Shown here: one piece after another, positions 1,584 through 34,500 of the stretch | How the letters are laid out: each line of letters opens with the position of its first letter | Position numbering within the stretch: position 1 is the stretch's first letter | DNA from: a virus | IMG/VR virus record: IMGVR_UViG_3300023176_006733 | Location: 1 to 44,511 of that record | DNA: 44,511 nt | Reading direction: 5' to 3' (one strand) | Notes under the pieces: generated by a model | The model's input: only the letters and a program-made list of their open reading frames with translations | The model's database searches: none | Told to the model about the DNA's origin: nothing | Translations under genes and position numbers: made by a program

Positions 1584-1922
1584 TTAGTCCTCATACCAAT
1601 TTATGCCTTTTGATTTACAGAAATTACCTGCGGTTTTCATTTCTATTCCTAACTTACCATTTCTTAATTTATTCAAAAATTCATCATCTCTTAATTTTTT
1701 TCTCATCTGATCTAAAGAACAACCACAATACAATATTGCTTTATTTCCATTCCATTTTGTATCAGTTTCTTTAAATTTATTTTCATGAACTTTTTTAAGA
1801 CTTTTTTCACAACTTGACATACCATAATGTACAATAGAGGATTTCCAAGGTCTATCGCTTTTTTTATAATCACCCATACATCCATAAAGAAAAAATAATA
1901 TTATTATCACATTTAATTTCAT
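1584..1922 (-). CDS. Small predicted lipoprotein with CxC motif
   Basis: A 112-residue protein with a short lysine start, a hydrophobic stretch (residues 4-13) and a lipobox-like FLYGC ending at C15, so it is predicted to be exported and lipid-anchored in the host envelope. The mature part has four more cysteines, C38, C66, C68 and C102. C66-G-C68 is followed by SLDQMRKKL, a CxC-then-amphipathic-helix pattern like that of small bacterial periplasmic proteins. Its ATG overlaps the gp15 stop (ATGA), with GGTGAG 8 nt upstream, so it is translationally coupled to gp15. A lipoprotein is out of place among neck and terminase genes. Superinfection exclusion or an envelope-related lysis role are possibilities I infer only from localisation. 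I do not recognise a named family. Confidence 0.75.
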   Translation of the reverse strand: MKLNVIIILFFLYGCMGDYKKSDRPWKSSIVHYGMSSCEKSLKKVHENKFKETDTKWNGNKAILYCGCSLDQMRKKLRDDEFLNKLRNGKLGIEMKTAGNFCKSKGINWYED

Positions 1923-2842
1923 GTTTCATACTCACCTGTTAAATTGTTATAATAAGCACTAGGATTAAATATTGTAATGCTTTTTAAATTTTCAGTTTTA
2001 TCAGCAGTTTCAGATATAGGTGTGATTGAAATTTTACTTATAATATTTTTTGACCCAATATTTGAATCACTATTTTCAAATAATAAATGAGTTTCATCTT
2101 CTAACAATAATCTGTTGATAGAAAAATTATTTGAATTTTCTAAATTTAAAAAAACTAATTCCGAATTATTTAAATTTACTTGATCAATTGGAGTTCTAAA
2201 ACTGATATCAATTGATTTAATAATTTTATCTGAAGTTCTAATATTTGGATATATGAACCCTTTTAAAGTAAAATCTAATGTCCATACTATTGCCCTTCTC
2301 TGCAAAAAATCTCCTAGATAATCATCTTCTACAGATGAAGAATTTAAAACAATAGGAACATCTAATTTCAATCCCATATCAGTTAAAATATTGACTGATA
2401 CTGTAAATTCTGGTGTAAAATAAGGTAAAATTTGTTCTAATATTTGAGTACCATCTTCTGCATTATCGACAAATACAAACAAACTAAAATCAAAAGTATA
2501 AGGATTTGGATTGTACATCGTTTTCAAAGTTCTAGAATTTGATACATAACTTTTATTTACCATTTTGCCGATGGAATTTAATTTCCTCTCCGGATCATAA
2601 TTAATTGCGGTCATCTCAAATCCAATTCTAGGTAATTTTATAGAAATTTGTTTGTCTAAATTTGGATCTGCTTCTAATCTAGCTAAAAATTTCTGTTTCG
2701 GTCCATAAGCGACCGGAACCTTTATTTTAGATACCACATTATTATTTGAATCTTTTTTTTCTATACTAATGTCGTTAAATAAAGTTCCAAATAATGCAAC
2801 ATATTTTCGAATTGTTTGATGGTAGAAAGTTTGTCCTAGCAT
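1919..2842 (-). CDS. 15: Tail sheath stabiliser and completion protein, gp15-like
   Basis: A 307-residue homolog of T4 gp15 (272 aa), which forms the hexameric ring at the head-proximal end of the tail and joins tail to neck. Family landmarks are the N-terminal MLGQTFYHQTIRKYVALFGT, KVPVAYGPKQKFLARL, LPRIGFEM, YNPNPYTFDFSLFVF followed by ILEQILPYF, and a late RRAIVWTLDFTLKGFIYPN block. These run in the same order as T4 gp15 (YNPSPIKMIYELSIF, VEQILPYFQPHF, RRRIEWSLTFEVNGWMYP). Residues past about 225 form a divergent Asn/Ser-rich tail. Start support: GGAG 4 nt upstream of ATG. It has its own upstream region (2843-2893) because the gene before it lies on the other strand. The next gene overlaps by 4 nt. 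Confidence 0.92.
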   Translation of the reverse strand: MLGQTFYHQTIRKYVALFGTLFNDISIEKKDSNNNVVSKIKVPVAYGPKQKFLARLEADPNLDKQISIKLPRIGFEMTAINYDPERKLNSIGKMVNKSYVSNSRTLKTMYNPNPYTFDFSLFVFVDNAEDGTQILEQILPYFTPEFTVSVNILTDMGLKLDVPIVLNSSSVEDDYLGDFLQRRAIVWTLDFTLKGFIYPNIRTSDKIIKSIDISFRTPIDQVNLNNSELVFLNLENSNNFSINRLLLEDETHLLFENSDSNIGSKNIISKISITPISETADKTENLKSITIFNPSAYYNNLTGEYET

Positions 2843-2893: not shown

Positions 2894-3247
2894 ATGACAA
2901 CATCAATAAAAACACAAGGACAAAATTTAGTAATGTATCAAGGAGCTACATTTGAGCAAACATTTGTCGCAAAAGATAAAAATAGTTTAAACGTATCTTT
3001 ATCTGCAGGAACTTGCATATCTCAAATGAGAAAAAATTACAGCACATCTAATTCTTCTCATATTTTAACATTTTCCACAACAATTAATGACAGTGCTGTG
3101 ACTATTTCAGCATCTGCTAGTGATACTACAAATATGGAACCTGGTTTATATTTTTATGATGTTGAATTTAGGCAATCCGATAATGTAACTGTTGAAAAAA
3201 TTGTAAATGGTATGGTAAATGTTATTGGGGAATCAACAAAAATTTAA
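2894..3247 (+). CDS. Small beta-rich virion-type protein on the opposite strand
   Basis: A 117-residue protein predicted to be almost all beta strand. The pattern is an opening LVMYQGATFEQTF, then ISQMRKNYSTS, a TISASASDTTN segment, EPGLYFYDVEFRQ, and a closing GMVNVIG. I have seen this pattern in many marine phage small structural proteins and in BppU-like N-terminal domains of tail and baseplate adhesins. The role is probably an accessory virion or baseplate component (inference). It is the only plus-strand gene between positions 1 and 41698. It has an exact TATAAATA box 5 nt before its ATG and no Shine-Dalgarno. Its TAA overlaps the gp14 stop by 4 nt in convergent orientation, so there is no room for a terminator between them. 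Confidence 0.85.
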   Translation: MTTSIKTQGQNLVMYQGATFEQTFVAKDKNSLNVSLSAGTCISQMRKNYSTSNSSHILTFSTTINDSAVTISASASDTTNMEPGLYFYDVEFRQSDNVTVEKIVNGMVNVIGESTKI

Positions 3248-5760
3248 TAATTTGTTTCACTGAATGGATTTGTTTCTGAAAAATCTATGATAGAATCAGC
3301 TTCTTTTTCTATAGTATCATTTGTCGCCAGTTCATCATTAATAAAATTTTGTTCATCGGTTTGATCATAAACTCTTACAGAATTTCCATCAGAAGTTTTT
3401 ATGAATTCATTATCATTAAAAGACCCTCCAGAATTGATTATTTTTATAGTAGTGGAATCTTTAAATGAAACTTCTCCTTTTAGTCCAGAATCATTGCCTA
3501 TAACTATATCTCCCTTTAATATATTTGTTTTTGGGGCATCAATAGTTAATGTTGGGGGCGAAGAATATCCATAACCAGAATTGTCTATATTAATTAGTTT
3601 TAAAGATCCATTAGCATACATTTCGGTTGTAAAAGATGCTTTATAATCTTGAGCTAATCCAGTCGGATTTGAAATTGTCACGGTTGGATTAGTATAATAA
3701 AATTTACCTGAATTTACAATGTTTATTTTATCTACTATACCTCTACTGCTATTATATGAAGAAGTTGCCGTGGCATTGATATTTTCAAAATCATTATAAT
3801 TTCCTGTGGGATCTGAAATTGTTATGGTGGGGGCTGAATTATAAAAATTTCCACCATAGTCAATATTAATTGATTGTAAGATTCCATCAGATATAACAGG
3901 AGACATAATTGCTTTAAAATCATTACTCGTTCCTGTCGGAGAATCTATTGATATCAATGGAACTGATGAATACATTTCTCCATTTTCCGTCAAAGATATA
4001 GAAGTAATGATTCCGTTTTCTACTGTTGCAGTAGCAACTGCCTCCTTTTTTTCAAAACCTTCATAATTAATTTTGTAAGAATCATCGATATCAATTATAT
4101 AATCTCTAGAAGTTGTTGGCGTATTTAAAGAATTGAAATTAGTACCATTATAATAGATATCATCTACAATGAATCCTTTTGAACCTGAATTTTTTAAAAT
4201 GATTCCGCCATTTCCTGTAAATGAATTATAATTGGTAAACCACTCATCGGTCCATACTCCATTAAAAGGTGCCGTGTAATTTACAACTTCATTCGAATCG
4301 ATTATTATTTTTAGATAAGTTAAATTAAAACCACTTCTACTTTTTATGAACTGTAAGAAATGCCAATTTCCATCAAGTATATCTGTTGCAGGACAAGATG
4401 GATAATGATATAATTGATTAGCAGAATCATAAGTTGTAAATTTTATCTCTCCATTTGTGTTCAATATTGATATTACACTTTGAATCTGATTCTCATTTTT
4501 AAATTCAAATATTGACACATCTGATATACCTGAATTTGTGTGTAAATTTTGATCATATTTGAACCAAAATGAAAAATTTCCTCCATAATTAATATTTGAA
4601 CTATAATCACTTCTAAATTTTCTTAGTATCTGATCATTATTATTAGATTTTGAAAATTGATAAGAATAATTACCAAATTTACTATCTGTTGTCCAATTTG
4701 ATGGAATCTGAATAGTGTCCTGAATTGTCACATTCGGAACATCTTTATAGTACGTACCAGAATTACCTAGAACAATAGAAGAAATATAATTAGTTCCACT
4801 GAAACTATTTGAAGTCATTATGGCAGAAGCAGTTGCAGTAATAGGATCAGTAGTAGGCGGATTAACAATTATGGTGGGATTATTGTTATAAAAGCTTCCA
4901 GGATGCGTAACGCTAACACTTGAAACTGAGTTAGATATTAATGATGATGTTGCCGTTGCTGTAATCGGATCCCCTGGACTATCTATTATTATTGTAGGAT
5001 CCTCCACATAATATGCGCCAAAATTTGTGATAATAAAGCCGGTCAAACTTCTATTTGAAACTATTGCTGTTGCTGTTGCCGTTGTAGGTGATAAATCAGG
5101 ATCGGTAATCGTAACGGTTGGATTATAAAAATATCCACTACCATAATCTAATATATTAATTTTAGAAATTCTATAGTCTGATATGTCCGCAGAAATTATT
5201 GCTGTATTGCCAATTAGATATTTATATTCTGAAACATAGGAATATTTTTCTTCAATTTGATCGATATCATCAATTCCAGTGTCAATAGTTTGATCATCAT
5301 ATTGAAATAACTCACAGGTTAAATCATAGATGGGCAATTTACCAAATTGATAAAAAATTGATTCATGCTCAACAAATTTTATTTCATACAATTTTTTATT
5401 CAATGGAAAAAATATTAAATCTCCTTCTTTAGGACGAACATAATCCAGAATTTCTAAATTTTCCCATCTTCTCCTAGCAATTGAAAATGTAACCTGGTCT
5501 CTTATTTCCAATCCAAATCTAGAAATAAAATCTCCATCTCCTTCAAACCCATCTACCGATTTTACATACATCTCTACTAGAAAAGAACTATTAAATTCTG
5601 ATATTGTATCTTCTAAATATAGTTTATCCAAATTAACCAATGTTCTCGGTAAATAATATACATCAATTCCAAAATTTTTGATAGATTCAATAATTAAATC
5701 TTGATGTAGATTTTGTTCAGGAATATTTTGAAAATGATTGAAATATGGATTCGTTGGCAT
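3244..5760 (-). CDS. 14: Neck protein gp14 with large repeat and LamG-like insertion
   Basis: The N-terminal ~190 residues match T4-type gp14, a head-tail connector (neck) protein: MPTNPYFNHF, then GIDVYYLPRTLVN, then RPKEGDLIFFPLNKKLYEI, then FGKLPIYDLTCELFQY. The C-terminus (about 805-838, ending ETNPFSETNY) also fits the family. T4 gp14 is 256 aa; this protein is 838. The extra ~600 residues hold eight copies of a ~22-residue beta unit of the form (I-x-I-x-x-x-G-x-x-Y-x-x-x-P-x-[VI]-x-I), near 198, 241, 281, 327, 587, 629, 678 and 721. Between the two sets of four, residues ~350-547 look like a LamG/concanavalin-type sandwich (FSFWFKYDQ; GNWHFLQF; LKIIIDSNEV). TAATG overlap with gp13 implies coupled translation. 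The insertion probably projects from the neck as a decoration; glycan binding is inference. Confidence 0.88.
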   Translation of the reverse strand: MPTNPYFNHFQNIPEQNLHQDLIIESIKNFGIDVYYLPRTLVNLDKLYLEDTISEFNSSFLVEMYVKSVDGFEGDGDFISRFGLEIRDQVTFSIARRRWENLEILDYVRPKEGDLIFFPLNKKLYEIKFVEHESIFYQFGKLPIYDLTCELFQYDDQTIDTGIDDIDQIEEKYSYVSEYKYLIGNTAIISADISDYRISKINILDYGSGYFYNPTVTITDPDLSPTTATATAIVSNRSLTGFIITNFGAYYVEDPTIIIDSPGDPITATATSSLISNSVSSVSVTHPGSFYNNNPTIIVNPPTTDPITATASAIMTSNSFSGTNYISSIVLGNSGTYYKDVPNVTIQDTIQIPSNWTTDSKFGNYSYQFSKSNNNDQILRKFRSDYSSNINYGGNFSFWFKYDQNLHTNSGISDVSIFEFKNENQIQSVISILNTNGEIKFTTYDSANQLYHYPSCPATDILDGNWHFLQFIKSRSGFNLTYLKIIIDSNEVVNYTAPFNGVWTDEWFTNYNSFTGNGGIILKNSGSKGFIVDDIYYNGTNFNSLNTPTTSRDYIIDIDDSYKINYEGFEKKEAVATATVENGIITSISLTENGEMYSSVPLISIDSPTGTSNDFKAIMSPVISDGILQSINIDYGGNFYNSAPTITISDPTGNYNDFENINATATSSYNSSRGIVDKINIVNSGKFYYTNPTVTISNPTGLAQDYKASFTTEMYANGSLKLINIDNSGYGYSSPPTLTIDAPKTNILKGDIVIGNDSGLKGEVSFKDSTTIKIINSGGSFNDNEFIKTSDGNSVRVYDQTDEQNFINDELATNDTIEKEADSIIDFSETNPFSETNY

Positions 5761-6767
5761 TAACCTGGTCCTACCATAAAATCTATTGGTAATTGATATT
5801 TAATTTGAACTTGTTCTTCTATTTCTCGTAGTTCATTTACGGCATCATCGAATAATTGTCTACCATCGAGCGTTACACCTCCTGGCAATGAAACTCCTTG
5901 GTATTTTATTAGATTTGATCCCCATTGTTTTTTAAATAATGCAGTAACATATCTTTTTAAAAACATATCGTTATAAATTTTACCATATAAAGACGGATCA
6001 ATAATTCTATATGCTTCTACAACAATATATTCGCCAATATCTATATCGGAAACCCAATCCATATCCAAATATAATCTGCTTTGATGTCTATTGAATCTTA
6101 TAGGTTTTTTACCAACAAAAATATCATTCAATAATTGTATATGCTGCATTGACATTTGGTAATTTATGATAGAAGTTGCCGTTAAATATGGCAATTCATT
6201 TAAATGAAATTGATATCTAAAGGAAAACATATCACTTGTAGTTTGTCCCCCTCCAGTATCTTGTATGTCAAAAATACTAATAACTCCCGTTATTGAATCG
6301 GTCAATGGAATGTATTTGTTATCAACATCTCCAAACACTACTGGATTATCAATTGCATCGACAATCGCAGAACTTCCAGATTTTTTACCTATGATAGTTT
6401 CACCACTTGAGAAACTAGATGACACATTATTATTTGAAATTCCAGTACTATCTTTGTGATTTTTGAATGTTATGAAACTTGAATTCGAAGTTGTTAATGT
6501 GGCAGAAGCATTCGATGTTTGTCCCTCTATAATTTCACCATTTGAAAAATCACCTATGACAGTATTAACAGAAACCGTTGATCCTGTTATTTGATGACGG
6601 TGATATATTTTTTCAATAGAATCAAAGTGATATTCCTGAAAGTATTGTAAACCCTCGTCTATTCTGTCCTCAAGTTGATCATCATCAACATTAATTTCTA
6701 TGACCGGTTTTCCAAGAGTTCTCAGACAATATTGTTTTAATTCTTCTCTAGATAATGGTTGCGACAT
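5760..6767 (-). CDS. 13: Neck protein, gp13-like
   Basis: A 335-residue homolog of T4 gp13 (309 aa), which with gp14 forms the neck that seals the filled head and binds the tail. Family landmarks are SREELKQYCLRTLGKPVIEI, QLEDRIDEGLQYFQEYHFD, QMSMQHIQLLNDIFVG near 203-218, and KRYVTALFKKQWGSNLIKYQ followed by LPGGVTLDGRQLFDDA near 271-309. An insertion at about residues 64-140 contains two copies of the short unit FxxGExIxGxxSxxSAxxx (FSNGEIIEGQTSNASAT, FSSGETIIGKKSGSSAI) that also appears in gp7, gp8 and the DUF4815-type protein. The start has GGA 7 nt upstream. It follows the fibre gene after a 17-nt gap and overlaps gp14 by 1 nt. Confidence 0.93.
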   Translation of the reverse strand: MSQPLSREELKQYCLRTLGKPVIEINVDDDQLEDRIDEGLQYFQEYHFDSIEKIYHRHQITGSTVSVNTVIGDFSNGEIIEGQTSNASATLTTSNSSFITFKNHKDSTGISNNNVSSSFSSGETIIGKKSGSSAIVDAIDNPVVFGDVDNKYIPLTDSITGVISIFDIQDTGGGQTTSDMFSFRYQFHLNELPYLTATSIINYQMSMQHIQLLNDIFVGKKPIRFNRHQSRLYLDMDWVSDIDIGEYIVVEAYRIIDPSLYGKIYNDMFLKRYVTALFKKQWGSNLIKYQGVSLPGGVTLDGRQLFDDAVNELREIEEQVQIKYQLPIDFMVGPG

Positions 6768-11476: not shown

Positions 11477-11692
11477 TTAATCCTGAGAAATTTTTTCTAA
11501 TATTTTTCGCAACATACATTTTAATTCGAATATTTCACTCTTCAAATTATTTATTTCATTCGAATGATTCATTAGCAAATTATTTTGTTTTACTTTATTT
11601 CGATGATTATCAAGAGTTTTTTTATCATTTCTTATAATCGCATTAGAATACGTATCTTTAAGATACTTTGGATCATCTGTTTTCACAATCAT
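11477..11692 (-). CDS. Small coiled-coil protein between DUF4815-type protein and fibre
   Basis: A 71-residue protein with the opening MIVKTDDPKYLKDTYSNAII, a recurrent N-terminus of small proteins at this locus in cyanophage-type genomes (from memory). It continues with a basic helix and a leucine-rich coiled coil (residues ~45-68: INNLKSEIFELKCMLRKIL). Its ATG overlaps the stop of the 2288-aa gene (ATGA) with AGGTG upstream, and the fibre gene starts 3 nt after it. A short coiled coil coupled to two giant virion proteins could be a fibre-assembly chaperone or an attachment adaptor; that is inference. Confidence 0.85.
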   Translation of the reverse strand: MIVKTDDPKYLKDTYSNAIIRNDKKTLDNHRNKVKQNNLLMNHSNEINNLKSEIFELKCMLRKILEKISQD

Positions 11693-14600
11693 GGAACACC
11701 TACACTATCCAATGCGATTGCTTTCATGTCTAAAATTTTAGGTATCCCTATAAATGTAGTTTGTACATCTCTATTCAAGGTAAATGCTATTTTTATAGCA
11801 AATGTTCTAAAAGTATCAAATAAAGACCCATCAGAATTGGTGTAAGAAATATATTCATCTTTGGTTCTAAATACAAAATTCTTAGTATCATTTTCATTTA
11901 ATGAATATGTTGATTCTGCTGTATCTTGTACCATTGCAATGTAAGGTTTTTCATCAAAAGATTCTGGATCACTATTAGATAAAACTTTATAATATACATG
12001 TATATTTGATCCTCTAGGCTTGTAAGCATTCAAATATATTCTCAAATCTCTAGCATCAAAATTTTCTTCCAAAGTAACACGTTTACTAATATATCTTGAT
12101 AATAAATTTCCGCCAAATGAATGACTTACATTTGCGGTCAACATCTCTTCTGGTTTTGCTCCTTCGCCATTAACCTTAACAACCATCGAAGTTGTTGAAG
12201 CAACATTATCAGTCAACACTCCAGGTGAACCACCATCATAAATTGTTATTGTAGGTGTCGTCACATAACCTGAACCAGGATTTACAACATATACACTTTT
12301 AATACTTGTATTTGAAAAAACTTCTGCAGCCAATGTTGCTCGGTCTGTTCCATAATCTGGCATTGAAACTTCAAATAAATCTGTATTACCATGCGCATCA
12401 GTATCATATCCCTGACCAGTATTCGTAATTATGATATTATTATTTGTAATCTCTCCATTATTTAATATATTCTCTACAGTTATGAAACCCATTCTAGTAA
12501 CATCAAATACTGGAGATAATTTGGTATTTGTTGTTTCAAAATACAAATTTATCATTAAAGAATTAGAATACTGCGCATTATTTACATCAGACATATAAGT
12601 GATTTGTTTTTGCTGTTGCAAATCAACCGTTTTATTAGGAGTAAATCTAATTTCAGGATTTCTTGTTATGGAATCTTTTTCTGTCAAAGAATGTTTAAAA
12701 TCTACGAATGTATCAGTAAATTCTAATTGATCTGTCATTAACTTAAAAGTATCAAAATAAGTATTAGAATATTTTTTATTTGCTGAATACAGTTCATTCT
12801 TAAAATTTGCCAGACCACTTAATGCTGAAAATTCACACATATATACTTCAAACATTAATCCTGAATTGTTTACACGATTGTATGTACCAGTATTTGTTGG
12901 TAAAAATAAAGACCCCACAAAATCATTTTTATTAACAGTCAAGGAATCAAACGGATTAGTTCCTGTAATTAAAGCATTTACATCAAAACCATATAAATTG
13001 TATGAACTACTATTAGAAAGTAAAGTTATCGCATATTCGCCAGGTTCAACATAAACAGGATGATCAAACACAAAATTAGTTTTAGATCCTTTATCCAAAC
13101 CACTTGCGTTTGGTGTATTTGAGTTGCCAAGTTCTAAATCGGGATAAATTTGCTGTGAAGTTAAAGCATCTGTTTGTGCAGTTGGTGTTTCAGTATTTGC
13201 TGTTACTCGTCCTGGACTTAATATTACTTCAGATCCTGGAATTATAACCGATGGACTAGGATTACCATTAACAATTGGCCTTAATTGCAAAGTGACTGGA
13301 GTTTTCGCTCCGACAGTATCATCTTTTGTTCTAAAAAATAAAACCACTCTCTCTAAAAAAACACCTTTTGGATATAAATCTTCACTGATGTAAAATGTTT
13401 GTGCCAATGGATGATAATAGTTTGTCGTACCTGTTTCATTAGATTCTAAGACATCTTTGATTATTATTTCACTTGCGATATCGTTTCTTCTTAAAATTAA
13501 TGGACGTGTAGAAAATATTCCATTTTCATTTTTATTATCGATTAAACCTTTAGAATAAAAAGTTTGTTCGGCAACTGATGTTGTTAATTCTGGTATATTT
13601 TCAGAATCATCACACACTCTAAATAATAAATCATTAGATTTAAAAATTGATGATGGTACAAAAAATTCTCCAGCTACTACTCCATCTTGATTAACAGACA
13701 ATTGCTGATCTTGTAGTGTAAAATTTTGAATGCTTTCGATTATTCCTTCACAAAAATGTTCTTTACCTCTGATTTTTTGGCCTATTCTAAACGAATCTTC
13801 ATTGGAAAAATTTGTTACCATTATAGCACATGAATTGATAGTATTCCTATCTGACATGAAAACAACTGTAGCAGTATTTCCTGCCTGGTCTTCGGAACCG
13901 GGTTCATCTAAAATTTCAATTTCCTCGTAATTATTTGGTGTTGTTCTAAAAACGTTTGCGGTATTTACATTTTTGAGATTAATAATAGTTGCTTGTTTTA
14001 TTTGATTAGTCACTCTAGTATCACCAAAAAATGCAAAAACATTTTTATTTGGTTTTAATCCTTTGGCTAAGAATGTTATTTTTTGTTCCCTTACTCCAAA
14101 TACAACACTCATATTCAAAACTTTGTTGCCAAAAGTTTTTATTATTTGTTCTGGAATATTTCCTGTTGTGAGTCCAGATAAAGTTTTTTGTTGATTTGTC
14201 GTTGTGGTAGAACGATCACTGATAGATGGACTTCCTAAATCAACAATACCGTTTTTAGTATCATTATTGATTTGTTTGCCTGACCAAAAATCTTCCCAAT
14301 CTTTCCACTGAGAACCATGACCATTTTTATATTCTATTTTTCTCCAGTTATCAAATTGTCCCTCAATATTAACTTTAATATTAGCTTTATTAACCGTGTC
14401 ATACCATATATCACTAGGAGGATCTAGAAACATAGATCCAATATAATTCTGTAAACCCGGACTTATCTGAATAGTCTTTTGAAACGATGCGCCATTCCAA
14501 TTTCCTGTTGTTAATTGACTAACAATAGGTGTTTTTATAAACGGTAATGTCAAAATTCCAGAATTATTTACAAGAGTTGTTGAATCAGTGTCAATATTAA

Positions 14601-17600
14601 ATTTAAAAGCATCACTATAAAATGAAGGTCTTAATTTTTTATTTTCAAAATCTATTGCACATGAATAATCTAAATTCAAAACATCTCCAATATTATGTCC
14701 GGAGAAAGGATCTACTAATATACCATTTTTAAATCTATCATTATTATTCGAATCAGTAATTACTAATCCGTCGGCTTCTTTTTCCATCAAACTCAATGAT
14801 GTATAATATTCCAATGTTTCTATTCTACGTTCTAATTTTCCAATATCCCTCATAGTATATCTTTTATTATCAATATATCGTATCTGCACATCACTAATTA
14901 ATGAGGTATATGGTGCTAAGTCTAGACTATATAATGTCAAAGAATCTTCATCATCTGGAGGTAATACAGGTTCTAAATCAGATATACCTTCTATAACTCT
15001 AAACTGTCGGTCTTTACCTAGTACTAACTTATCTTTTCTTGGTAGATAGTGATTATAACTACATTCAAATGCAAAATCATAATCAGGCATACATTTTTGA
15101 GAAAAAACGTTTGATGTTAGAATATCATTTGTTGATGATGATCCAAATTGATCTTCCGTTTCAATACCAACTCTTTTAGGTCTAAAATCTATAACATCTC
15201 GTAAATTGAAAGTTTTTCCTGTAGTTGGACTTGTATAATATGGTATGCTTTGATATTGAGTATTACCGGTTCCTGAATAAATGTATGAATCAACGGTAAA
15301 AGGTCCAAAACCTTCATGATTATAGTAATTCAAAATTACTAAAATTTGACCTGCTGGAACAGTAGCATTATTTTTTAATCTAATATTCGCATAATTATAG
15401 TAATTATCTTTTTGACCGTTGTCAAATATAAAATCATTTGTTACATTATAAATACTTGGAATTCCTGTTGTTTGGGAAGAAATTGCCGCCGCAACCATCG
15501 CATTTGATACATTTTGATTCGGATTTCTTGAGTCTACTATTGTTACTATTTCTTTAACATCTGAGATTTTTAAACTATTAATAGCACCAGGACTGTAATC
15601 TAATTCTGTTCCGAATGCTATTTGTCCTTGCTGTGCTTGAACCAATGATGGGGTAAGAGTCGAACTTCTTGAATCAACAACTGCTCCACTAGTATTGCCT
15701 GAAACTAATATTTTTTTACCTATGAGTCTACCTTCATCAGCATCTGATGCTATCATTGTGGCAACTACATGAATATATTTACCCTCATAATTAAAATTTA
15801 TACTGTCAGGATGTGTTGACCCCACATTTATCTGCAATTGTTCTGCTCCATTCAATGATGTAATAGATCTACCGGCAGATAATCCTGTGCCTGATGTATT
15901 AGAAAATTCAATATAATCTCCTTCTACACCCGTTTGAGATGAATCTGGATCTAAAACAGTAACTATGTAATTTTGCTCTGCTTGTGATTCCGATAAAGTC
16001 AAATTTGAAATCGTTCCTGGATAAAATTTTTCCTTAGAACCAAAAGGAGTATTTAAAGTTGCAACATTACCTGTTAATGGCTCATAGAATGTTCTCTTAA
16101 ATTTATATTCTCTGTTTGATGTCGATTCTATTGCTTTATTATTAAATGGAAATATCAAAGTTCTCTGATCATCATTATCATCAAATAGTACTGTTTCTCC
16201 TTCTTCAGTCAATGTATTTTTACCAGTAACATCAACATTAAATGCTGAAGTGATTACTGATGTGCCCCCTCCAGTATCCTTTAATTTTATACCAGATTTA
16301 ACATCTTTCAATGAAAAATTAATTGAAAAAGTAGAGTCTGATTGTGTAGGTTGGGTGAGTGGAGTGTCTAAAACTGCAGTATATTGCACACTGGGATCAC
16401 CATTCACACTTGTTCCAGTATAAGAAATAATTTTTCGTATATCACTTGTGACAACACCTAAAAAACTAGTATTAACAGTAATTGTCGCTCCAAATAAACA
16501 ATTTGGGGTTTTATAATAATCATCAATCGTTATTAAACTGGTATTAGAATTCGATGCTGTTACTGTGCTATCGTGCTTTGAAAATCTAAAATCAAATAAA
16601 TGCATATTAAAAGTCGATGGATATAATCTATGATAAGTTCTATTAACACTATCGGTAGCATATTTACTGTCGATGGTTAAAGATCTACCTCCATGGTGGT
16701 CTATTTGTCTAACTCTTGCTGTTCCGATTTTAGTTCTATTTGTATCATCAGTTGATAAAACATCAATACCCACAAAAGATATCTCTGCATCAGCATCTGA
16801 AGTTATAAGATTCACAGTTCCATCAGTTCTTGATGTTGATGGCCATTTTACAATATGTAAATCAACTATGTCCATACCAGAACCTCCCCCATCTGCTGTA
16901 TCTATTCCGGTATCTAAAACATTATTAGCAAAAAAATCAGTTACCCGCATATAAGGACCAAATTCTAGTCCTTGCTGTTCACTCACAACATTTCGTAAAT
17001 CTCTAGCCTTTTTAAGATCGACATACTTTGTTGTTATAGTTTCATGCTCATAACCTTTTACATATGCTTTTCCTGGTCCTAATTGTAATGTTAATTTTGA
17101 TTCTACACCAATATTTTGATTTTCTGTGCCATTTCCTAAAGATTTTCCTGTAGATAATATCAAATATGAAGTATTTTGTATTGTTCCTACAGTAGCTGTT
17201 TTTGCAGTGTTACCAGATAAATAAATGACATCGCCTTGATTTAAATCATTGACAAAGTTAGTTCCTGTTCCATCTAGATTGTCCGATGTATTTTGTGTAG
17301 TTCTAGGACTCGCCACACCAAAAATTTTATGTTGTAAAACATCAATAGGAAAAGGTCTGACTGTAAAATCACCGTTAGTATCATAAGTTCTTCTCGCCAA
17401 AGTTTTTTCTATTTCACCTAAAACAGGATATACTATTTCTTCAGTTTTTTTACCGTTTTCAATCCTTAATAATTCAATAAAATTTGATGTTACATTTTTT
17501 TCTATTGGATTTACAATACCTCTAATGTACTCAACATCACCTATTACAGGAGTTGATGGTTTACCTTGTATATTAAAACTAAAAGAAATACTAGTTCCAA

Positions 17601-18555
17601 CTTCTGAAATTACATGCTTACCGTTCACTGTGTTATCAAGTGCTCCAGTAACAACAACTGTATCTCCAACACTTAAATTATGATCTGTGGCAGTTGTTAT
17701 ATTAATTTTACCAGATTTTAAATCTTTTTCATCAACCGCAAAAGTTACACCAGCAGGTATGATTTTTTTACCTTTTTCATAAAAATCTTTTTTCACCAAT
17801 GTTAAAGAAATTTTATATCTATTCCCTCCAGGTGCGCTAAAATTAGGATATCCCAATGCATTATCTAACAATGTTGTATCATCAATGCTGGATACAATTC
17901 TTTCATCTATTTCTAAACCTATTCTATTTGTGGGGGTATTGGAATATTTTTCAAGTATTATAGTTTGTTTCGGAATATATAAAAAATATCCTCCAATATA
18001 AAAAATACCTTCACTGATTCCACAAATAGAACCACTTTTTGATGATAGGGATGTAACTAATGTTTCGGAAAATAATATTCCTTCTGAACTATCAGTTACA
18101 ACTGCAAAATAAGAAACTCCATCATCTATTGTATTAATAACTTCACCATCTAAAAATAAATCTTCACCAAAATAATTTATCATAATGGTGTTGTTATCTA
18201 TATTTGTATACGTAGATGCGGCAATAACTTCTGCCTTTGCCAAAGAAGTTTGTCCTTGAATGGTTCTACCAACTAAATTATTAACATCTATCTCTTGTCC
18301 TAAATACTCTACTTTTAGTGTCAATGAATTTATTTTTGTATTGAGAGTTAACTCGCCACCAAAAACTCTTGATCCCTCGACAAAATTAACTTCACCTAAT
18401 TTTTCTATTTGATTTAAAAGTATGGATTGTATTTGATTTAATTCTCTCGCTTGTACAGAAAACCCTGGTCTAAATAAAATTTTATAAAATTCATTGTCTT
18501 CAGAAAAATCATCAAAATATGGTGATATATTAAAATTTTGTGTAAGTTTAGGCAT
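11689..18555 (-). CDS. Very large DUF4815-type baseplate/tail structural protein
   Basis: A 2288-residue protein, the largest in the window. Its N-terminus (NISPYFDDFSEDNEFYKILF, then RPGFSVQARELNQIQSIL, LLNQIEKLGEVNF) is the hallmark of the DUF4815 family of phage virion proteins placed next to gp8 in marine T4-like phages. In that position it may do the work of the T4 wedge pin proteins gp9 to gp11 (inference). The middle carries many beta segments, with F-x-x-G-x-x-I-x-G units (LVGRTIQGQTSLAKAEVIA; FRIGQKIRGKEHFCEGIIES). A GSGYVTTPTITIYDGG unit, the same repeat type as in gp14, lies near the C-terminus. The central RYTMRDIGKLERRIETLEYY then TSLSLMEKEA helix is also typical of the family. 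Start: GGAG 9 nt upstream. It begins 3 nt after gp8. Confidence 0.85.
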   Translation of the reverse strand: MPKLTQNFNISPYFDDFSEDNEFYKILFRPGFSVQARELNQIQSILLNQIEKLGEVNFVEGSRVFGGELTLNTKINSLTLKVEYLGQEIDVNNLVGRTIQGQTSLAKAEVIAASTYTNIDNNTIMINYFGEDLFLDGEVINTIDDGVSYFAVVTDSSEGILFSETLVTSLSSKSGSICGISEGIFYIGGYFLYIPKQTIILEKYSNTPTNRIGLEIDERIVSSIDDTTLLDNALGYPNFSAPGGNRYKISLTLVKKDFYEKGKKIIPAGVTFAVDEKDLKSGKINITTATDHNLSVGDTVVVTGALDNTVNGKHVISEVGTSISFSFNIQGKPSTPVIGDVEYIRGIVNPIEKNVTSNFIELLRIENGKKTEEIVYPVLGEIEKTLARRTYDTNGDFTVRPFPIDVLQHKIFGVASPRTTQNTSDNLDGTGTNFVNDLNQGDVIYLSGNTAKTATVGTIQNTSYLILSTGKSLGNGTENQNIGVESKLTLQLGPGKAYVKGYEHETITTKYVDLKKARDLRNVVSEQQGLEFGPYMRVTDFFANNVLDTGIDTADGGGSGMDIVDLHIVKWPSTSRTDGTVNLITSDADAEISFVGIDVLSTDDTNRTKIGTARVRQIDHHGGRSLTIDSKYATDSVNRTYHRLYPSTFNMHLFDFRFSKHDSTVTASNSNTSLITIDDYYKTPNCLFGATITVNTSFLGVVTSDIRKIISYTGTSVNGDPSVQYTAVLDTPLTQPTQSDSTFSINFSLKDVKSGIKLKDTGGGTSVITSAFNVDVTGKNTLTEEGETVLFDDNDDQRTLIFPFNNKAIESTSNREYKFKRTFYEPLTGNVATLNTPFGSKEKFYPGTISNLTLSESQAEQNYIVTVLDPDSSQTGVEGDYIEFSNTSGTGLSAGRSITSLNGAEQLQINVGSTHPDSINFNYEGKYIHVVATMIASDADEGRLIGKKILVSGNTSGAVVDSRSSTLTPSLVQAQQGQIAFGTELDYSPGAINSLKISDVKEIVTIVDSRNPNQNVSNAMVAAAISSQTTGIPSIYNVTNDFIFDNGQKDNYYNYANIRLKNNATVPAGQILVILNYYNHEGFGPFTVDSYIYSGTGNTQYQSIPYYTSPTTGKTFNLRDVIDFRPKRVGIETEDQFGSSSTNDILTSNVFSQKCMPDYDFAFECSYNHYLPRKDKLVLGKDRQFRVIEGISDLEPVLPPDDEDSLTLYSLDLAPYTSLISDVQIRYIDNKRYTMRDIGKLERRIETLEYYTSLSLMEKEADGLVITDSNNNDRFKNGILVDPFSGHNIGDVLNLDYSCAIDFENKKLRPSFYSDAFKFNIDTDSTTLVNNSGILTLPFIKTPIVSQLTTGNWNGASFQKTIQISPGLQNYIGSMFLDPPSDIWYDTVNKANIKVNIEGQFDNWRKIEYKNGHGSQWKDWEDFWSGKQINNDTKNGIVDLGSPSISDRSTTTTNQQKTLSGLTTGNIPEQIIKTFGNKVLNMSVVFGVREQKITFLAKGLKPNKNVFAFFGDTRVTNQIKQATIINLKNVNTANVFRTTPNNYEEIEILDEPGSEDQAGNTATVVFMSDRNTINSCAIMVTNFSNEDSFRIGQKIRGKEHFCEGIIESIQNFTLQDQQLSVNQDGVVAGEFFVPSSIFKSNDLLFRVCDDSENIPELTTSVAEQTFYSKGLIDNKNENGIFSTRPLILRRNDIASEIIIKDVLESNETGTTNYYHPLAQTFYISEDLYPKGVFLERVVLFFRTKDDTVGAKTPVTLQLRPIVNGNPSPSVIIPGSEVILSPGRVTANTETPTAQTDALTSQQIYPDLELGNSNTPNASGLDKGSKTNFVFDHPVYVEPGEYAITLLSNSSSYNLYGFDVNALITGTNPFDSLTVNKNDFVGSLFLPTNTGTYNRVNNSGLMFEVYMCEFSALSGLANFKNELYSANKKYSNTYFDTFKLMTDQLEFTDTFVDFKHSLTEKDSITRNPEIRFTPNKTVDLQQQKQITYMSDVNNAQYSNSLMINLYFETTNTKLSPVFDVTRMGFITVENILNNGEITNNNIIITNTGQGYDTDAHGNTDLFEVSMPDYGTDRATLAAEVFSNTSIKSVYVVNPGSGYVTTPTITIYDGGSPGVLTDNVASTTSMVVKVNGEGAKPEEMLTANVSHSFGGNLLSRYISKRVTLEENFDARDLRIYLNAYKPRGSNIHVYYKVLSNSDPESFDEKPYIAMVQDTAESTYSLNENDTKNFVFRTKDEYISYTNSDGSLFDTFRTFAIKIAFTLNRDVQTTFIGIPKILDMKAIALDSVGVP

Positions 18556-27179: not shown

Positions 27180-27512
27180 TCAAATTACTGTTGTACTAGC
27201 ACTAAATGACAATTGTTGCACATTTAGAGGAGGTATTACAGGAACAGGAGTAGGTGCTCCTAATGCTGGTATTGTAACAGTTAATGTTCCTGTCGCACTA
27301 CCGGTTGATAAATTAACATTTCCGGGATAGAATAATTCTACCTGTAATTTAGAAGCAAATACTCCAATTGCAGTTGCAATATCATTTGCTAATTCTTCTT
27401 TTGCTGTCGGACTAGGGTTCAATTCTGCTTTGTCTAATGCAAATTTTATTGATGATGCTAAAGTCGCTGTGTCTATCAATTCAAATCTCCTATTTTGTTG
27501 TGAATTTTGCAT
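27180..27512 (-). CDS. Small protein of unknown function upstream of gp25
   Basis: A 110-residue protein. Residues 1-65 are predicted helical (FELIDTATLASSIKFALDKA; AKEELANDIATAIGVFASKL). The rest is beta and proline-rich (LTVTIPALGAPTPVPVIPPL). I do not recognise the family. It overlaps the end of the 1358-aa gene by 23 nt and has no clear Shine-Dalgarno, so coupling is likely. Small genes with a similar helix plus Pro-rich layout near gp25 are common in phage baseplate loci, which suggests a baseplate accessory part, but this is inference. Confidence 0.8.
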   Translation of the reverse strand: MQNSQQNRRFELIDTATLASSIKFALDKAELNPSPTAKEELANDIATAIGVFASKLQVELFYPGNVNLSTGSATGTLTVTIPALGAPTPVPVIPPLNVQQLSFSASTTVI

Positions 27513-30500
27513 ATGTATAGGATTTATCTAAAATCACTCCATATGGATTTTCAACAGTATCATTATTATTTATTCGCAAATAATAGTCGGTTAATGTTGT
27601 AAGTTCAGAATCAGGTATAAAAACAATTCTATTTTTATGAATATCATATATCGTCACTGTTCCTGTGATAAAATTACTTTGAAAATTTGGATCCGTAGAT
27701 AATTCGAAAGAATTATTTTGTCCTATAGTAAAACTAGATAATGAAACGGTCTCGTTAAAAATAATTTGTATTAAGGGAATTAATGAAATGTCTGTTATAC
27801 TATTATCTTGATTTGAATCATATTCCAATAAATTTACATTATCTATTATTAATTTTAAAATTTTAAAATCATCAGTTGTTGAAACTTTAAAAGTATAATT
27901 ATGAATTAATATTTCAGTTTCCGAAGTTTGTGATGAATTTGTTGTGTAAGGAAGTGTTCCTCCTTTAGTTTTAGCGGTTCCTCTAGTACCAAAATATATG
28001 AAACTATTTTGAGATAATTGCAGATCATCATTCTTCATCAATAATGACAATTTAAAAAAAGTATCATTATTTGAACTAGTTATATAAGGACTAAATGGTA
28101 TGCAATTAGAAAAATTTGAATCATAAGATAGTATTAAATTGTCAGTACTTTGAATATTCTGATTATTTTTATTTGTGTTGAATGAGAGAGAATCAACATT
28201 CATTGTTTGATCAAAAGCAAAATGGATATCTGTCGTTGGCGAAATATTTTCTTGATTTGAACTAAAATTTGTTACAAGTTGATCACTAATATTAGTGGCA
28301 TAAAATTTAACTAAATTTGGTTCGGTTTTTGTATTAAAACCAGGTAATGTTGGTTCTGATGGATCACTTGTTTTTCCAATACCCTTACTCGTATATCCAT
28401 AAATTCTATCGTTTGCTCTAGCAAAAGTCACATCAGTATATTTTTCTCGATATATTAATCTACTTTCATTTTCTATAAATTCTATTACAGTTCCTTCAGG
28501 AGCTTTACCAATAGCAGTATAATCTACGGAAAATCTATATGTTTGTTCATTTTCCTCAAATCCACATATTTCACCGGGAGCTATATCAATAATGTATTTA
28601 CCAGATTCAATTGGAGTGTAGTCAATGTATGATAAATCTCCTTGTTCATCTAAACCATATTGATATACCTTTCCTCTACCTCCAGTGGTAAATCCATAAA
28701 AAACTTTTCCACTTGTTAGTCCGTCTATCTGAAAATTCTGATTTATCAAATTCAATGCTGATCTAACGAACAATCTCTTAGTACCTCTGATAGTCTCTCC
28801 AGAAACATAGTAATTTTCAACATCATCTGGAATAGTTTGCAAAACCAATGATTTTATATCACTAATTTTTTGTTCTTCCAAATAATTTTTATTTAATGCT
28901 TTATCGCCTACTTTTTTTGTAATTTTTAATTTATAATTTGAATTTGACGATAACTTTGTTAAAGGCTTAAATGAAAATGTGTCCGATTCTTCGATAGTTT
29001 TTAGAACTACAGGTGATTCCATTTGAACAACCGTATTAAAATCATCACACGATAATTGTATTGTTCCAGAAGGTCTTGTGGATTCAGTGTTAACTGTGAT
29101 AGTTGTAGGATCTATAGATTCATCAAACATAATAAGTATAGATTCACCATTTAAATCCAATTCAACATCTTCATATGTGGTAGGATCAGATATTTGAGAT
29201 ATTGTCCTGCTATCTAAGATTTTTTGATAAAGCACACTACTTGAATTACTGTCGGAAAAATATATTTTTTTCACTGTAGGAGGTGTGGTATCTAATTCAT
29301 AGATAGGAATTTCTGAAGGTTCATTAGTTGTCGTATCAGATTCAACAGGCCTAAAACCAGTAGTAATTGGTTCTGTGGTTTGAAAATTATAAGTCATAGT
29401 AGTTCCACCCAAATCAGAAACATCGGATTTAACTTTTAAATAATAGTTTGTATATTTTTCAATTGTGCTAGGTGTCAAGATGAATTGTGAATTTCCTGTG
29501 TTTGATGTCACACTGTCAAAATCAACTAAAGACAGTAAATCAAAATTGTCATTTGATTTTGACAATTGAATTGTGCTACTTAATTTTGTTAAATTTTCAG
29601 AAAAAGGAATAATGACACCATTTGAACATATTAAATGTGAAGAGTTTGATACAGTTATAGTAGAAGTATTCATTGATTGACTGAAATTGATTTGAATAAT
29701 TCCTACCTTCTCTTGATAATTATCGACATCATTTAAATTTTCAGATGTTTCTTCAATACCAGTTAAAAAATATAAAAGTTCTGTTCGTTGAGTGCTAAGT
29801 ACAGGAGAATTTTCATTTATTGTTTTAGTAATTAGATATCTAAATGAATATTCATCTAAAATTTCAGACACTAAAAAAGGACCAGTAAAAATCGTGTCAA
29901 TTTTTCCATCAATGTAAATTTTATCTCCGATAGACAAAGTATGCTTTAAATTTGTTGTAACTGAAGCAGTTGAATCGTTTCTACTAATTTCGGAGATTTT
30001 AATTTTACTCGTTGTTGATTGGCCTTCTGATGGATAAATTTGTGTAATTTCTGGTGCCGAAGTATTAAAAGGATGAACATTATGATTTGGATAGGTATTT
30101 GCTTTAATGTGACATAATAATTTTTCTTGGCCATTTGATATTTCTAGAATTGAATTATTTACAAAATTATCTGTTATAATTTGATTATCAGAATTCACGC
30201 AAACATAATTTATAACATCTTCATCTTTTTTTATTATGCGCCCTAACATAACATCATTATCAGGAGAAATTGATGCTCCTCCATTCGGATTAGCATACAA
30301 TAAAGTTTTCATCGATGAATTCAAATTGATATCATCTCTAAATCGTATGTGATTTTGAAATGTTGTTGCTTTTTTTAGTGTTACTTTTTTCTGACCGTCA
30401 ATAGTTTTAACATTAACTATATCTTGATTTTTAGACAACATCGGATGATAATTTAATCTACCTGCATTTTTTGATGAAATGTTATAAGGAATCGTAAATT

Positions 30501-31566
30501 TAAAATCATCTTTTCTGGTCACACGATAAGTATCAGTTTTAACATCACCAGATACTACATCATAAATTTTTATCAAATCTTCATCATTTAAATTATGTTT
30601 ATTGTATGTTGTTATTTCAGTATTCGTGCCATCAGAAGAATATGCTACATTCATTCGATAACAACTTAAATCAAGAGTAAATTTTAAATTATTTTTATCT
30701 ACATTTGTTATTTTTCCAAACAATGGTTTATTTAAATTATAGTTATCAATAGTATCATTTTCTCGCAATAAATAAAAATTATCTCCAACAATAAAATCGG
30801 TTCTAAATGATTCCAAATCTATATTTAAATATTCTTCCTGACTGACTTGTTGCGGAATCTGTTCCGTTCTTCCATTAATTACAATGCGTTCTCCATTTTC
30901 ATCTAATCTATCAACTAAAATAGTAATTGTTTTTTCTTGAGTTTGAGATAATTTTAAAAAATATAGAGTTAAATTTTCAGAATCAATTGTATTGACATTG
31001 AATCCTGAATATATTCCTTGAGAAGAAATTATCAAACTTCTAGAATTATCCGTCATAAATCCAGAACCTACCTCAAAAGAAATTTGTTTTTCTGTGCTAT
31101 CTAATATTCCATCGTCTGCTAAATTTAAAAAATATACAGTATTAGATGACAAATTAATTTTTGGTATTATTGAAATTTTTTCATTTACTGATGAGGAATT
31201 TTCATCAAGCATTACTATGTCTTCAATATAAGAACTTATTGATTCTATTTGTGTTATCTTTGAAGGTTTTGCTTCATTTTTTAACGTTAAAATATTGTTG
31301 TCTTCATTTGAAGATGAGGAGCATATATGAGTCAACTGAACAGTTCCTCTAATCAAATTATTATCTGTAGAAAAAGTTACAGATTCGGTATATAAGTTTG
31401 ATGTAAATGTGACATCAAAATTTGAATCAATCGGAACAAAAATTACACCATTTGCTAAATCCAAATCAGAAAATTTTCTAGTATCCTGACCATAATCAAA
31501 ATCAACTTCAGAAGATATATTATTATCATCTATTGATGTAATTTTTCCTGTTCTGTTATATGGCAT
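27490..31566 (-). CDS. Large virion protein with repeated Ig-like (Big_5-type) domains
   Basis: A 1358-residue beta-rich protein. At least four stretches, near residues 618-730, 760-912, 1082-1240 and 1245-1358, with a fifth weaker one near 45-165, show the Big_5/SbsA-like pattern: an I-x-I-x-F-[SD]-x-[ST]-[MI] strand (IIQINFSQSMNTSTITVSN; ILIMFDESIDPTTITVN; IHFAFDQTMNVDSLSFN; IQIIFNETVSLSSFTIG), then G-T-[IV] strands, a F-x-P turn, and a closing Y-x-L-[KR]-[IV] strand leading to F-x-T. Middle parts (~250-600 and 920-1080) are other beta modules. Such Ig-like arrays decorate phage tails and baseplates and are thought to bind cell surfaces weakly; the role here is inference. It lies between the 1124-aa protein and gp25, and its ATG overlaps the preceding TAA. 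Confidence 0.85.
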   Translation of the reverse strand: MPYNRTGKITSIDDNNISSEVDFDYGQDTRKFSDLDLANGVIFVPIDSNFDVTFTSNLYTESVTFSTDNNLIRGTVQLTHICSSSSNEDNNILTLKNEAKPSKITQIESISSYIEDIVMLDENSSSVNEKISIIPKINLSSNTVYFLNLADDGILDSTEKQISFEVGSGFMTDNSRSLIISSQGIYSGFNVNTIDSENLTLYFLKLSQTQEKTITILVDRLDENGERIVINGRTEQIPQQVSQEEYLNIDLESFRTDFIVGDNFYLLRENDTIDNYNLNKPLFGKITNVDKNNLKFTLDLSCYRMNVAYSSDGTNTEITTYNKHNLNDEDLIKIYDVVSGDVKTDTYRVTRKDDFKFTIPYNISSKNAGRLNYHPMLSKNQDIVNVKTIDGQKKVTLKKATTFQNHIRFRDDINLNSSMKTLLYANPNGGASISPDNDVMLGRIIKKDEDVINYVCVNSDNQIITDNFVNNSILEISNGQEKLLCHIKANTYPNHNVHPFNTSAPEITQIYPSEGQSTTSKIKISEISRNDSTASVTTNLKHTLSIGDKIYIDGKIDTIFTGPFLVSEILDEYSFRYLITKTINENSPVLSTQRTELLYFLTGIEETSENLNDVDNYQEKVGIIQINFSQSMNTSTITVSNSSHLICSNGVIIPFSENLTKLSSTIQLSKSNDNFDLLSLVDFDSVTSNTGNSQFILTPSTIEKYTNYYLKVKSDVSDLGGTTMTYNFQTTEPITTGFRPVESDTTTNEPSEIPIYELDTTPPTVKKIYFSDSNSSSVLYQKILDSRTISQISDPTTYEDVELDLNGESILIMFDESIDPTTITVNTESTRPSGTIQLSCDDFNTVVQMESPVVLKTIEESDTFSFKPLTKLSSNSNYKLKITKKVGDKALNKNYLEEQKISDIKSLVLQTIPDDVENYYVSGETIRGTKRLFVRSALNLINQNFQIDGLTSGKVFYGFTTGGRGKVYQYGLDEQGDLSYIDYTPIESGKYIIDIAPGEICGFEENEQTYRFSVDYTAIGKAPEGTVIEFIENESRLIYREKYTDVTFARANDRIYGYTSKGIGKTSDPSEPTLPGFNTKTEPNLVKFYATNISDQLVTNFSSNQENISPTTDIHFAFDQTMNVDSLSFNTNKNNQNIQSTDNLILSYDSNFSNCIPFSPYITSSNNDTFFKLSLLMKNDDLQLSQNSFIYFGTRGTAKTKGGTLPYTTNSSQTSETEILIHNYTFKVSTTDDFKILKLIIDNVNLLEYDSNQDNSITDISLIPLIQIIFNETVSLSSFTIGQNNSFELSTDPNFQSNFITGTVTIYDIHKNRIVFIPDSELTTLTDYYLRINNNDTVENPYGVILDKSYTYAKFTTK

Positions 31567-34500
31567 TATTTTATTTCCACGTCTAAAACGGTTGTTTGTA
31601 AAATTTTAAAGCCTCTTTTTAATGTCATTCCTCTATCAGAATCAACTTTCATTTTTTCTATGCTGTACACTGGATTTTTAACCGCAGAAAATATATAATT
31701 AGAATCACCAGGTTCTGTTGCTGATAATGTGTCAACCGGTGTAAAATCAACATTAAAAAATTCTCTACCATTTTCAAATGTTGTACTAACTGAAGGAGGA
31801 TTTTTTAAAAGGAAACTATTTGTTCCTTGCGTTAATGTAAATTCTGATTTACCATTATCGACATCTTCTTGTGATAATTTAAATGCCGATGTTAATACCG
31901 TTGGAGACATATTAATTGTTCTGCCTTGTATTTTATTTATTATTTCAATTTCATCGCTCGAAAACAAATGTGAATCATTCGCAAATATAACTCTAATTTT
32001 CGAATTACCTGGAATAATTGCAGATTCTGCATCGACAAATTCATTGTTAGTATTTTGAACTCTAATATCATACACATACGGTTTTATTTTATCAGAAATA
32101 GTTCTACTATCTCCTTCTCCTAATAACTGTTCTATAAGAGATTCTAATGGTGAGCCTTCCACCAAAGATCTTGCAAAATTTGTACTAAAATCTTGTGCTA
32201 GTTTAAAATTATTTACAAATTTATTAAATCCTTTTGAATCAGTTCCAGAAGCATAAAAAACTATTGCAATAGTGTATTTTAAATCATCTAAATCTTGGGC
32301 AGATAATACAGTAGGGGTATCACTAGATTTATCTGCCGGAACTAAAACAGGTTTTAGTGTTTCAGTAGTCACTGTTTCCTCAATTCCAGTGATTGGATTT
32401 ATTACTGTTGAATTTACCTTTACAGTTTCTATTTCCATGCTAGGAAATGGATTTGCTTTCTTTTGTAAAAATTTTGCATTAGCCAATTTTGTTTTGAATT
32501 CATTCACCCCTCCAAAACCACTTAAAGATAAAGTATATAATCCATTTGCATTCAATCCTTGTGTCAAAACAGTTAAAGCATCTAAAATTAATTTATTTGT
32601 ATCATTTAACCATTTTATAAAATCTTCTATAAAATTTAATGCCTCATCAATTAATCCCAAAGGCTCTTCAATCCAGCCTCTTACAGTACTTGTTAATCCA
32701 TAAATTCTATCTATTAATCTCCCGTAAACAGGTAAAAACTCAGCAATTGTAAAATAATTCCAGTTAGGGGGTATTGATGAATCTTGCTCGGAAAATAAAT
32801 CAAAAAAAACATTTGATGTACCATCTTCTTTAGTATTGAAAAAATCGAACCAGTCCGTTTTACCATTTGGAACTTTTACTGCATTGTCCAACAGAGAGGA
32901 AGAATCATCTATAGATTTATCCGATATCATTCTACCCAATTTCACCTGAATTTTATTCATACCTATAATTTGTCTATCAACTTTTTCCTTTGACTTTCTC
33001 TCAGGAACTGAATACCTGAATAATTCAACATTTCCTCTATTATCGGCAACGTTAGTTGAATTTCCTTTATCATCAATAATATTAACTTCTTTAATGTGAA
33101 GATTTGTTCCCATTCCAGGAATTAATTTTTTCAACGATTGCCAATTAAACGCAGAATTATCTTTCTTCAAATCCTCAGTGTCCACAGTACTCTCAAGTTC
33201 ATCTGAACCCAAAAAAGGATGATTTACTTGCATACCAGGAACTAATTTATTCTTAACAAATTCATTCATTAAAAAAACAAAGTCTTCATCATATAAATCT
33301 GGTCTGTTGTAAATATCTTCTCCGTTCTGTGCCAATTTTGCAAATTTTCTAACCCTAGGATCATTAGGAAAAACTTCTTCTAATGCTAAATTAGAAGAAG
33401 TAACTGTACCCGCAGCTGAACCAACCGGTTTGATGGATGTTTGATCCGAATCGCCAGGTAAAAACATAGGAGACATTAAAATATCTCCATCATTAATATT
33501 TTTTCTAATCGTACCTGGATTTGAACTATCTCTAGTAGAATGGTTCAATAACAATTCGCCATCTACATTTTTCACCTGAACGGTATTAGATATGACTTCA
33601 TTATTGACAATAATGATAGGATTATGTTTCACAACGGTGGCGGAAAAACTTTTTTGAAATAAACCTTCATTAGTTTGAACAATTTTATCGCCTTTTTTAA
33701 ACATTGGTATTGTAACGGGTTCATCTGTAATTTTATAAGTTCCATCTTTAACTTTTTTAATTTTTACATCATTGAACCAATATCTGCTTACTTGATCAGT
33801 TTTATTTCTCAACTGAACAGGACTACCTAAATTAATCGTCTGAGTTTGTTCTTCTTTGTCTGAAATTACTTTTCCATCCTCTGGAGTTAAAATTTCGAAT
33901 ATTCCTGCTAAAAAATTTGCCAAAGAATTTATTACTTTATTCACTCCACTAAAAGAAGGCAAAGTCGCTAAAATGACAAGTGATGAATACTCGCCTGTTC
34001 CTGTCGGTCTATTACTATCATTACTATCATCAAATGATTTAATGATATGATCTATTGCTTCTTTTGGGGTAAGTTCTCTCTTATTTAAAAATGTAGACAA
34101 ATAACCAAGTGCTTCTCCTATTAATGAATCTGCCCATGTTGATGAATCTAAATCCAAAAAATTTTTTAGTGACTGATAACTTTCTAAAACATTTTCTCTA
34201 AGTTGTGATGAAGATTGAGCTGGTTGTTGGATAAAGGATTTCGAATCAATTAATCTAGAAGTTCCTGAACGTATTGAACTAGATATTCCAAAAGGTTTTT
34301 CTACTCCCATCTCAATTTCAAATCCTGAAATGCCTGCTTTATATTCACTGGGTAATGTTACACCGGCCAAATCAGAAATTGCATCTGTTACTGATGCTGT
34401 ATTTACACCAGAAACTATTTGATTAAGTACAGAATTTGCAGTTTGTACATTAGTGACCTCATTAAAATCAATTCCTGTTCCTAGAGGAACCTCAAAATTT

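Follow-up and report, generated by a model that had tools for sequence, protein, structure and literature searches.

A probable lectin-like domain among beta repeats in gp14, a neck protein of a T4-like marine phage: a candidate exchangeable adhesin at the head-tail junction

The stretch of DNA analysed here (the window) is a 44,511-base IMG/VR virus record with a T4-like structural module, in which the neck protein gp14 appears to carry, inserted in its C-terminal arm, a cassette of beta-rich repeats arranged around a LamG/ConA-like domain. The best explanation of the observations as a whole, to which a probability of about 0.55 is given, is that this gp14 cassette displays six heads, that the lectin-fold unit is exchanged, and that it acts as a predicted accessory glycan adhesin. 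The neck genes and the segments of gp14 are located in Table 1.

Table 1. Positions of the neck genes and of the gp14 segments in the window, with the supporting evidence.
Feature	Positions	Strand	Evidence
gp14, the neck protein (head closure Hc2; 838 aa), including the repeat-LamG-repeat insertion	3244..5760	-	Pfam PF11649, phrog_460 and PDB T4 gp14 matches; intact in four other contigs
gp14 core, residues 1-172 (T4 gp14 beta-barrel core)	5245..5760	-	profile and PDB matches; dN/dS 0.05 vs L004
Beta repeats 1-4, residues 183-345	4726..5214	-	motif cores at 207, 248, 288, 335; repeats common to cyanophage gp14
Probable LamG/ConA-like jelly-roll, residues 354-543	4132..4701	-	profile envelope, AF2, Foldseek PDB and BFVD, hhalign with the other two sequence types
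Beta repeats 5-8, residues 570-746	3523..4053	-	motif cores at 594, 637, 685, 729
gp14 C-terminal module, residues 747-838, common to insert-free relatives and cyanophages	3247..3522	-	alignment with L014, L020, P-SSM2
gp15 tail sheath stabiliser, 307 aa, without LamG in the window	1919..2842	-	PF16724, E 8e-72
gp13 head-tail adaptor Ad2, 335 aa, gp14 partner, own extra stretch of ~80 aa	5760..6767	-	phrog_211, E 3.2e-38

Sequence matches identify the 838-residue open reading frame as gp14, the neck protein, of a T4-like marine phage with kinship to the pelagimyophages. Its residues 4-172 match the T4_neck-protein family PF11649 (E 3.8e-37, 128.6 bits for a gathering cut-off of 25), the protein matches phrog_460 (head closure Hc2) at E 1.8e-115, and T4 gp14, as found in PDB entries 9mkb and 9lu4, matches its core at E 3e-26. 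The gene order gp13-gp14-gp15-gp16 is present on one strand, with two small ORFs interspersed, as deduced from the phrog_211, PF16724 and phrog_445 matches of the neighbours. Since the closest isolates by baseplate gp6 are Mosig and HTVC008M (40% identity), phages of Pelagibacter and hence of SAR11 bacteria, a streamlined marine bacterium is the probable host. The initial annotation had described an intact N-terminal core and a family-type C-terminus around an insertion, and both were recovered, the former through the above matches, the latter by alignment with relatives. The family size it gave had to be revised: about 256 residues is true of T4 gp14, but gp14 spans about 272 to 1,022 residues in marine T4-like phages. 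The insertion, initially put at ~600 residues, amounts to 552 residues over the closest insert-free relatives (286 residues).

Several neighbouring features can be mentioned. A 112-aa ORF lying between gp15 and gp16 (1584-1922, minus strand) has a lipobox-like N-terminus (MKLNVIIILFFLYGC) and possibly encodes a phage lipoprotein; a similar ORF occupies the same place in contig L004. The opposite (plus) strand carries, between gp14 and gp15, a 117-aa ORF (2894-3247) that belongs to phrog_1084 and resembles a family involved in L-shaped tail fibre assembly (phrog_3304, E 3.8e-10). The extra ~80 residues of gp13 (6339-6578, minus strand), also present in the insert-free relatives L014 and L017, resemble the C-terminal module of P-SSM2 gp14 (pairwise BLASTP E 2e-5), and neck modules may thus have moved into gp13 as well. 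Elsewhere in the window, a 1,358-aa protein without PHROG match (27490-31566, minus strand) contains a bacterial Ig-like domain Big_5 (E 2.7e-7); the adjoining 1,124-aa ORF (31566-34940) likewise has no PHROG match.

The insertion itself is real. Identical (100%) copies of gp14 are found in three other metagenome contigs and a fourth, partial copy is 99% identical, while L004 encodes a full-length homologue of identical layout, 68% identical and gap-free over the 838 residues. Comparison of the window with L004 gave approximate dN/dS values, at dS 1 to 1.9, of 0.05 (core), 0.22 (domain) and 0.20-0.25 (repeats); with values around 0.2 against 0.05, the insert is maintained but evolves at a higher rate than the core, which would be expected if it is exposed. 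A chimeric assembly or a frame artefact, a risk already raised in the initial annotation, is ruled out by the identical copies in independent contigs, the 68% homologue and the purifying selection; nothing was found in its favour and its probability is practically nil.

Residues 354-543, as delimited by the profile envelope, probably form a LamG/ConA-like lectin fold, in agreement with the jelly-roll initially proposed at about residues 350-547. Without an alignment, AF2 prediction of the complete 838-aa protein reached a pLDDT of 32, hence the domain was modelled with a 16-row alignment. The model obtained is mostly beta, with about 13 strands (mean pLDDT 54.6, pTM 0.58), and its Foldseek matches are mostly LamG/ConA-superfamily folds, at query TM-scores of 0.3-0.5; this confidence and these scores are low, so that claims at the residue level would be unsafe. 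The PDB matches of this low-confidence model include neurexin LNS/LamG domains, galectins, a sialic-acid-binding CBM40, ConA-like lyases and the lectin-bearing pilin PilC, and those in BFVD are phage proteins labelled 'concanavalin A-like lectin/glucanases superfamily'. The relatives of the domain fall into three sequence types, A (that of the window), B and C, which align to one another by profile comparison (hhalign), weakly so for B and C. The positions conserved across the three are mainly structural (G, W-H, D), and their common W-H and late-D signature is typical of LamG domains. Sequence searches of PDB, Pfam and PHROGs, as well as tblastn of phages, gave no significant relative of the window domain. 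None of the three types has a match in Pfam or PHROGs with a significant E-value, a weak Laminin_G_2 Pfam match (E 0.09-0.11) being seen only in the type-C relative domain, and a search of NCBIfam with the full-length proteins gave no match. Because no Pfam model matched it significantly, the domain is called LamG-like and is not filed in the Pfam LamG family. A search of genome contigs returned no relative, and no cellular donor was found.

The lectin-like domain is present in 21 IMG/VR contigs including the window, three of them short ones in which the gp14 core lies off the contig. Type A is carried by the window, by the three contigs whose copies are identical and by L004 (68%); type B by the gp14 of L021 and L096 and by the gp15 of Pelagibacter phage Mosig; type C by gp14s of about 1,021 residues in L043, L097 and their relatives. 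Among cultured phages, Mosig is the sole carrier of types A-C at the sensitivity of tblastn. Most relatives do without the domain, which is thus dispensable at the family level. The gp14 of L014-L020 has 286 residues, with neither repeats nor domain, for a best-segment identity of 73-79% to that of the window; the gp14 of HTVC008M (290 aa) and Melnitz (287 aa) is also without such an insert, as is that of Mosig (272 aa). In the fetched loci, which were ranked by similarity and would therefore bias any frequency of LamG-bearing necks, 61 distinct complete gp14 of 250-299 residues lack repeats and domain, and all 15 complete gp14 that bear the domain have at least four repeats.

The most interesting result is the exchange between gp14 and gp15. 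Together with the occurrence of one domain type in the gp15 of a cultured phage and the existence of natural insert-free relatives, it is the strongest evidence, and lay out of view of the initial annotation. The DNA of the type-B domain is 90-91% identical among L021 gp14, L096 gp14 and Mosig gp15, whereas the gp14 cores are far less alike, with 67% identity in protein and 69.5% in DNA between L021 and L096, and 42% in protein between L096 and Mosig. The flanks also diverge fast, the 60 residues upstream falling to 31-70%. As regards gp15, the insert-free relatives of Mosig (L101-L106) have cores about 90% identical and end at 268 residues, the point beyond which Mosig continues into repeat, domain and repeat. 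A gp14-core tree places the domain by four changes, this being a quick tree with several forks and the root open and T4 on a very long branch. The close identity of the type-B DNA relative to cores and flanks, together with these four changes, most readily indicates that the domain is passed on horizontally as one piece, also from one neck gene to its neighbour (gp14 and gp15). This conclusion is drawn from type B, the window being of type A.

The beta repeats are the ordinary part of the insertion, as judged from cyanophage gp14, and the lectin-like domain its distinctive part. The core motif G-x-x-Y-x-x-x-P-x-[IVL]-x-[IV] occurs eight times in the window gp14, as four units before and four after the central domain, which bears out the initial count; the spacing is 40-48 residues, with a gap of 259 residues between the two blocks, and composition shuffles of the insert gave a mean of 0.004 hits. 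The initial view of these repeats as a special feature does not survive the comparison, since they are standard in cyanophage-type gp14, which has mostly 446-557 residues and 3-6 repeats and reaches 657 residues with 8; eight are counted in both S-CAM9 and S-PRM1. Repeats of the same type are also found in other marine phage structural proteins (phrog_701, 5342, 708 and 4406 matches), and a 2,288-aa virion-type protein of the window (11689-18555, minus strand; phrog_358) has one copy near its C-terminus. The arrangement around the domain is 4+2 in L021, 7+4 in L043 (counted by eye) and 1+1 in Mosig gp15. The 4+4 symmetry is peculiar to the window lineage, and the idea of a symmetric stalk as a general design feature was dropped after comparison with the other LamG-bearing necks, which are asymmetric.

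Insights into the location of the domain come from T4, where gp14 is a hexamer whose ring is bound to the gp13 dodecamer, and where gp14 residues 178-256, disordered before tail attachment, afterwards touch gp15 residues 203-245 (PMC12270204). The window insert begins at about T4 gp14 residue 200 and the Mosig cassette comes after about gp15 residue 255. By homology, both the gp14 insert and the gp15 cassette would lie near the gp14-gp15 junction. A lectin-type jelly-roll at such a site makes an external adhesin at the collar level plausible; this is the part of the proposed adhesive collar that stands, the repeats and the symmetric stalk as its design being abandoned. By analogy with T4, a gp14 hexamer would project six heads at the junction, with the repeats holding them away from the channel. 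The heads would most likely serve as an accessory adhesin alongside the tail fibres, their ligand being a polysaccharide or glycoconjugate external to the virion, either on the host surface or on particles. Sequence evidence from the sister type shows that the lectin-fold unit has been exchanged between phages as well as between gp14 and gp15. The neck would thus bear, where head and tail join, six lectin-like heads that can be exchanged and probably have an adhesive role.

Several known systems look partly similar. Residues 4-163 of the core align with T4 gp14 (PF11649; PDB 9mkb, 9lu4) over the beta-barrel region, but T4 gp14 (256 aa) has no repeats, no lectin-fold domain and a different C-terminal arm. 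The gp14 of Kyanoviridae, for example P-SSM2 (470 aa) and S-CAM9 (657 aa), shares the core, the beta repeats and the C-terminal module, with 4-8 repeats that are uninterrupted and no LamG-like domain. The gp15 of Pelagibacter phage Mosig EXVC030M (QOI69014) is an adjacent neck protein with a LamG-like domain and one beta repeat on each side; unlike in the window, the cassette is in gp15 rather than gp14 and is of type B. The collar spike gp40 of Vibrio phage XM1 is an adhesin-like appendage at the connector/terminator junction, proposed to act in host sensing or attachment, although it is a separate trimeric protein with an Ig-like anchor and a tailspike-like head, not fused to the neck ring (PMC10457771). 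In Agrobacterium phage Milano, the collar protein gp13 provides the neck with a jelly-roll decorating domain, structurally similar to glycan-interacting proteins, but forms a separate sheath-like collar of four disulfide-linked 15-subunit rings, with no protruding heads (PMC10491603). The T4 fibritin whiskers (gp wac) are appendages at the neck level too, in the form of a trimeric fibre bound to gp13. In the relevant passages of a pelagimyophage survey, concanavalin A domains were reported in unidentified structural proteins assigned to the tail fibre or baseplate, not to the neck (PMC7029224).

Among the other explanations, the main one is a structural or assembly role, in which the heads would dock another virion part (long tail fibres, sheath or capsid edge) like the T4 fibritin whiskers or the Milano collar. 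It takes this rank because fibritin went undetected in the phages examined: Fibritin_C (PF07921) was not found in the window record, Mosig, P-SSM2, S-CAM9 and two related contigs, while it was found in the T4 positive control, which is compatible with something else filling the whisker niche. LamG/ConA-like folds also serve protein-protein contacts, so the partner of the domain could be another part of the virion, and its position at the gp14-gp15 junction would suit such a role. The jelly-roll of the Milano collar, which connects neck to sheath, provides a precedent (PMC10491603). However, phages without the domain lack fibritin too, and assembly does not need an insert that most relatives, including HTVC008M and Melnitz, do without. 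The occurrence of one domain type in two different host proteins is also a better fit to a self-contained display unit, and docking is thus considered rather unlikely.

Less likely again is a neutral or weakly selected hitch-hiking, by which repeat-rich structural genes that recombine often would pick up beta-domains of no definite function. The repeats shared with many marine phage structural proteins would indeed provide recombination sites, and the domain distribution is patchy, but a dN/dS of about 0.2 at a dS of about 1 and the gap-free alignment of 838 residues with L004 argue for a maintained function, and the domain is retained recurrently in several lineages. An enzymatic head, namely a ConA-like glycoside hydrolase or lyase trimming surface polysaccharide at the neck, is very improbable, even though alginate lyases and GH131 appear among the Foldseek matches. 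The sequence shows no GH16-type E-x-D-x-x-E motif, conservation across the three types falls mainly on structural positions, and comparable matches are obtained with non-catalytic lectins. The accessory glycan adhesin remains the preferred reading. Its extension to marine T4-like phages in general is tentative and less likely than not: a mobile lectin cassette, swapped between two neck proteins at the head-tail junction, would provide an exchangeable ring of six predicted neck adhesins replacing whiskers, for binding to hosts or particles apart from the tail fibres.

The neck ring is usually viewed as a conserved gasket. The lectin-fold unit that it bears here varies among closely related phages and moves between neighbouring neck genes, the DNA being about 90% identical. 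With Mosig in culture as a carrier (on Pelagibacter HTCC1062), and with relatives that naturally lack the insert, the adhesin idea can be tested directly. If the unit is adhesive, abundant ocean phages would have, apart from their tail fibres, a second site of recognition, and host-range prediction from tail proteins would miss this neck site.
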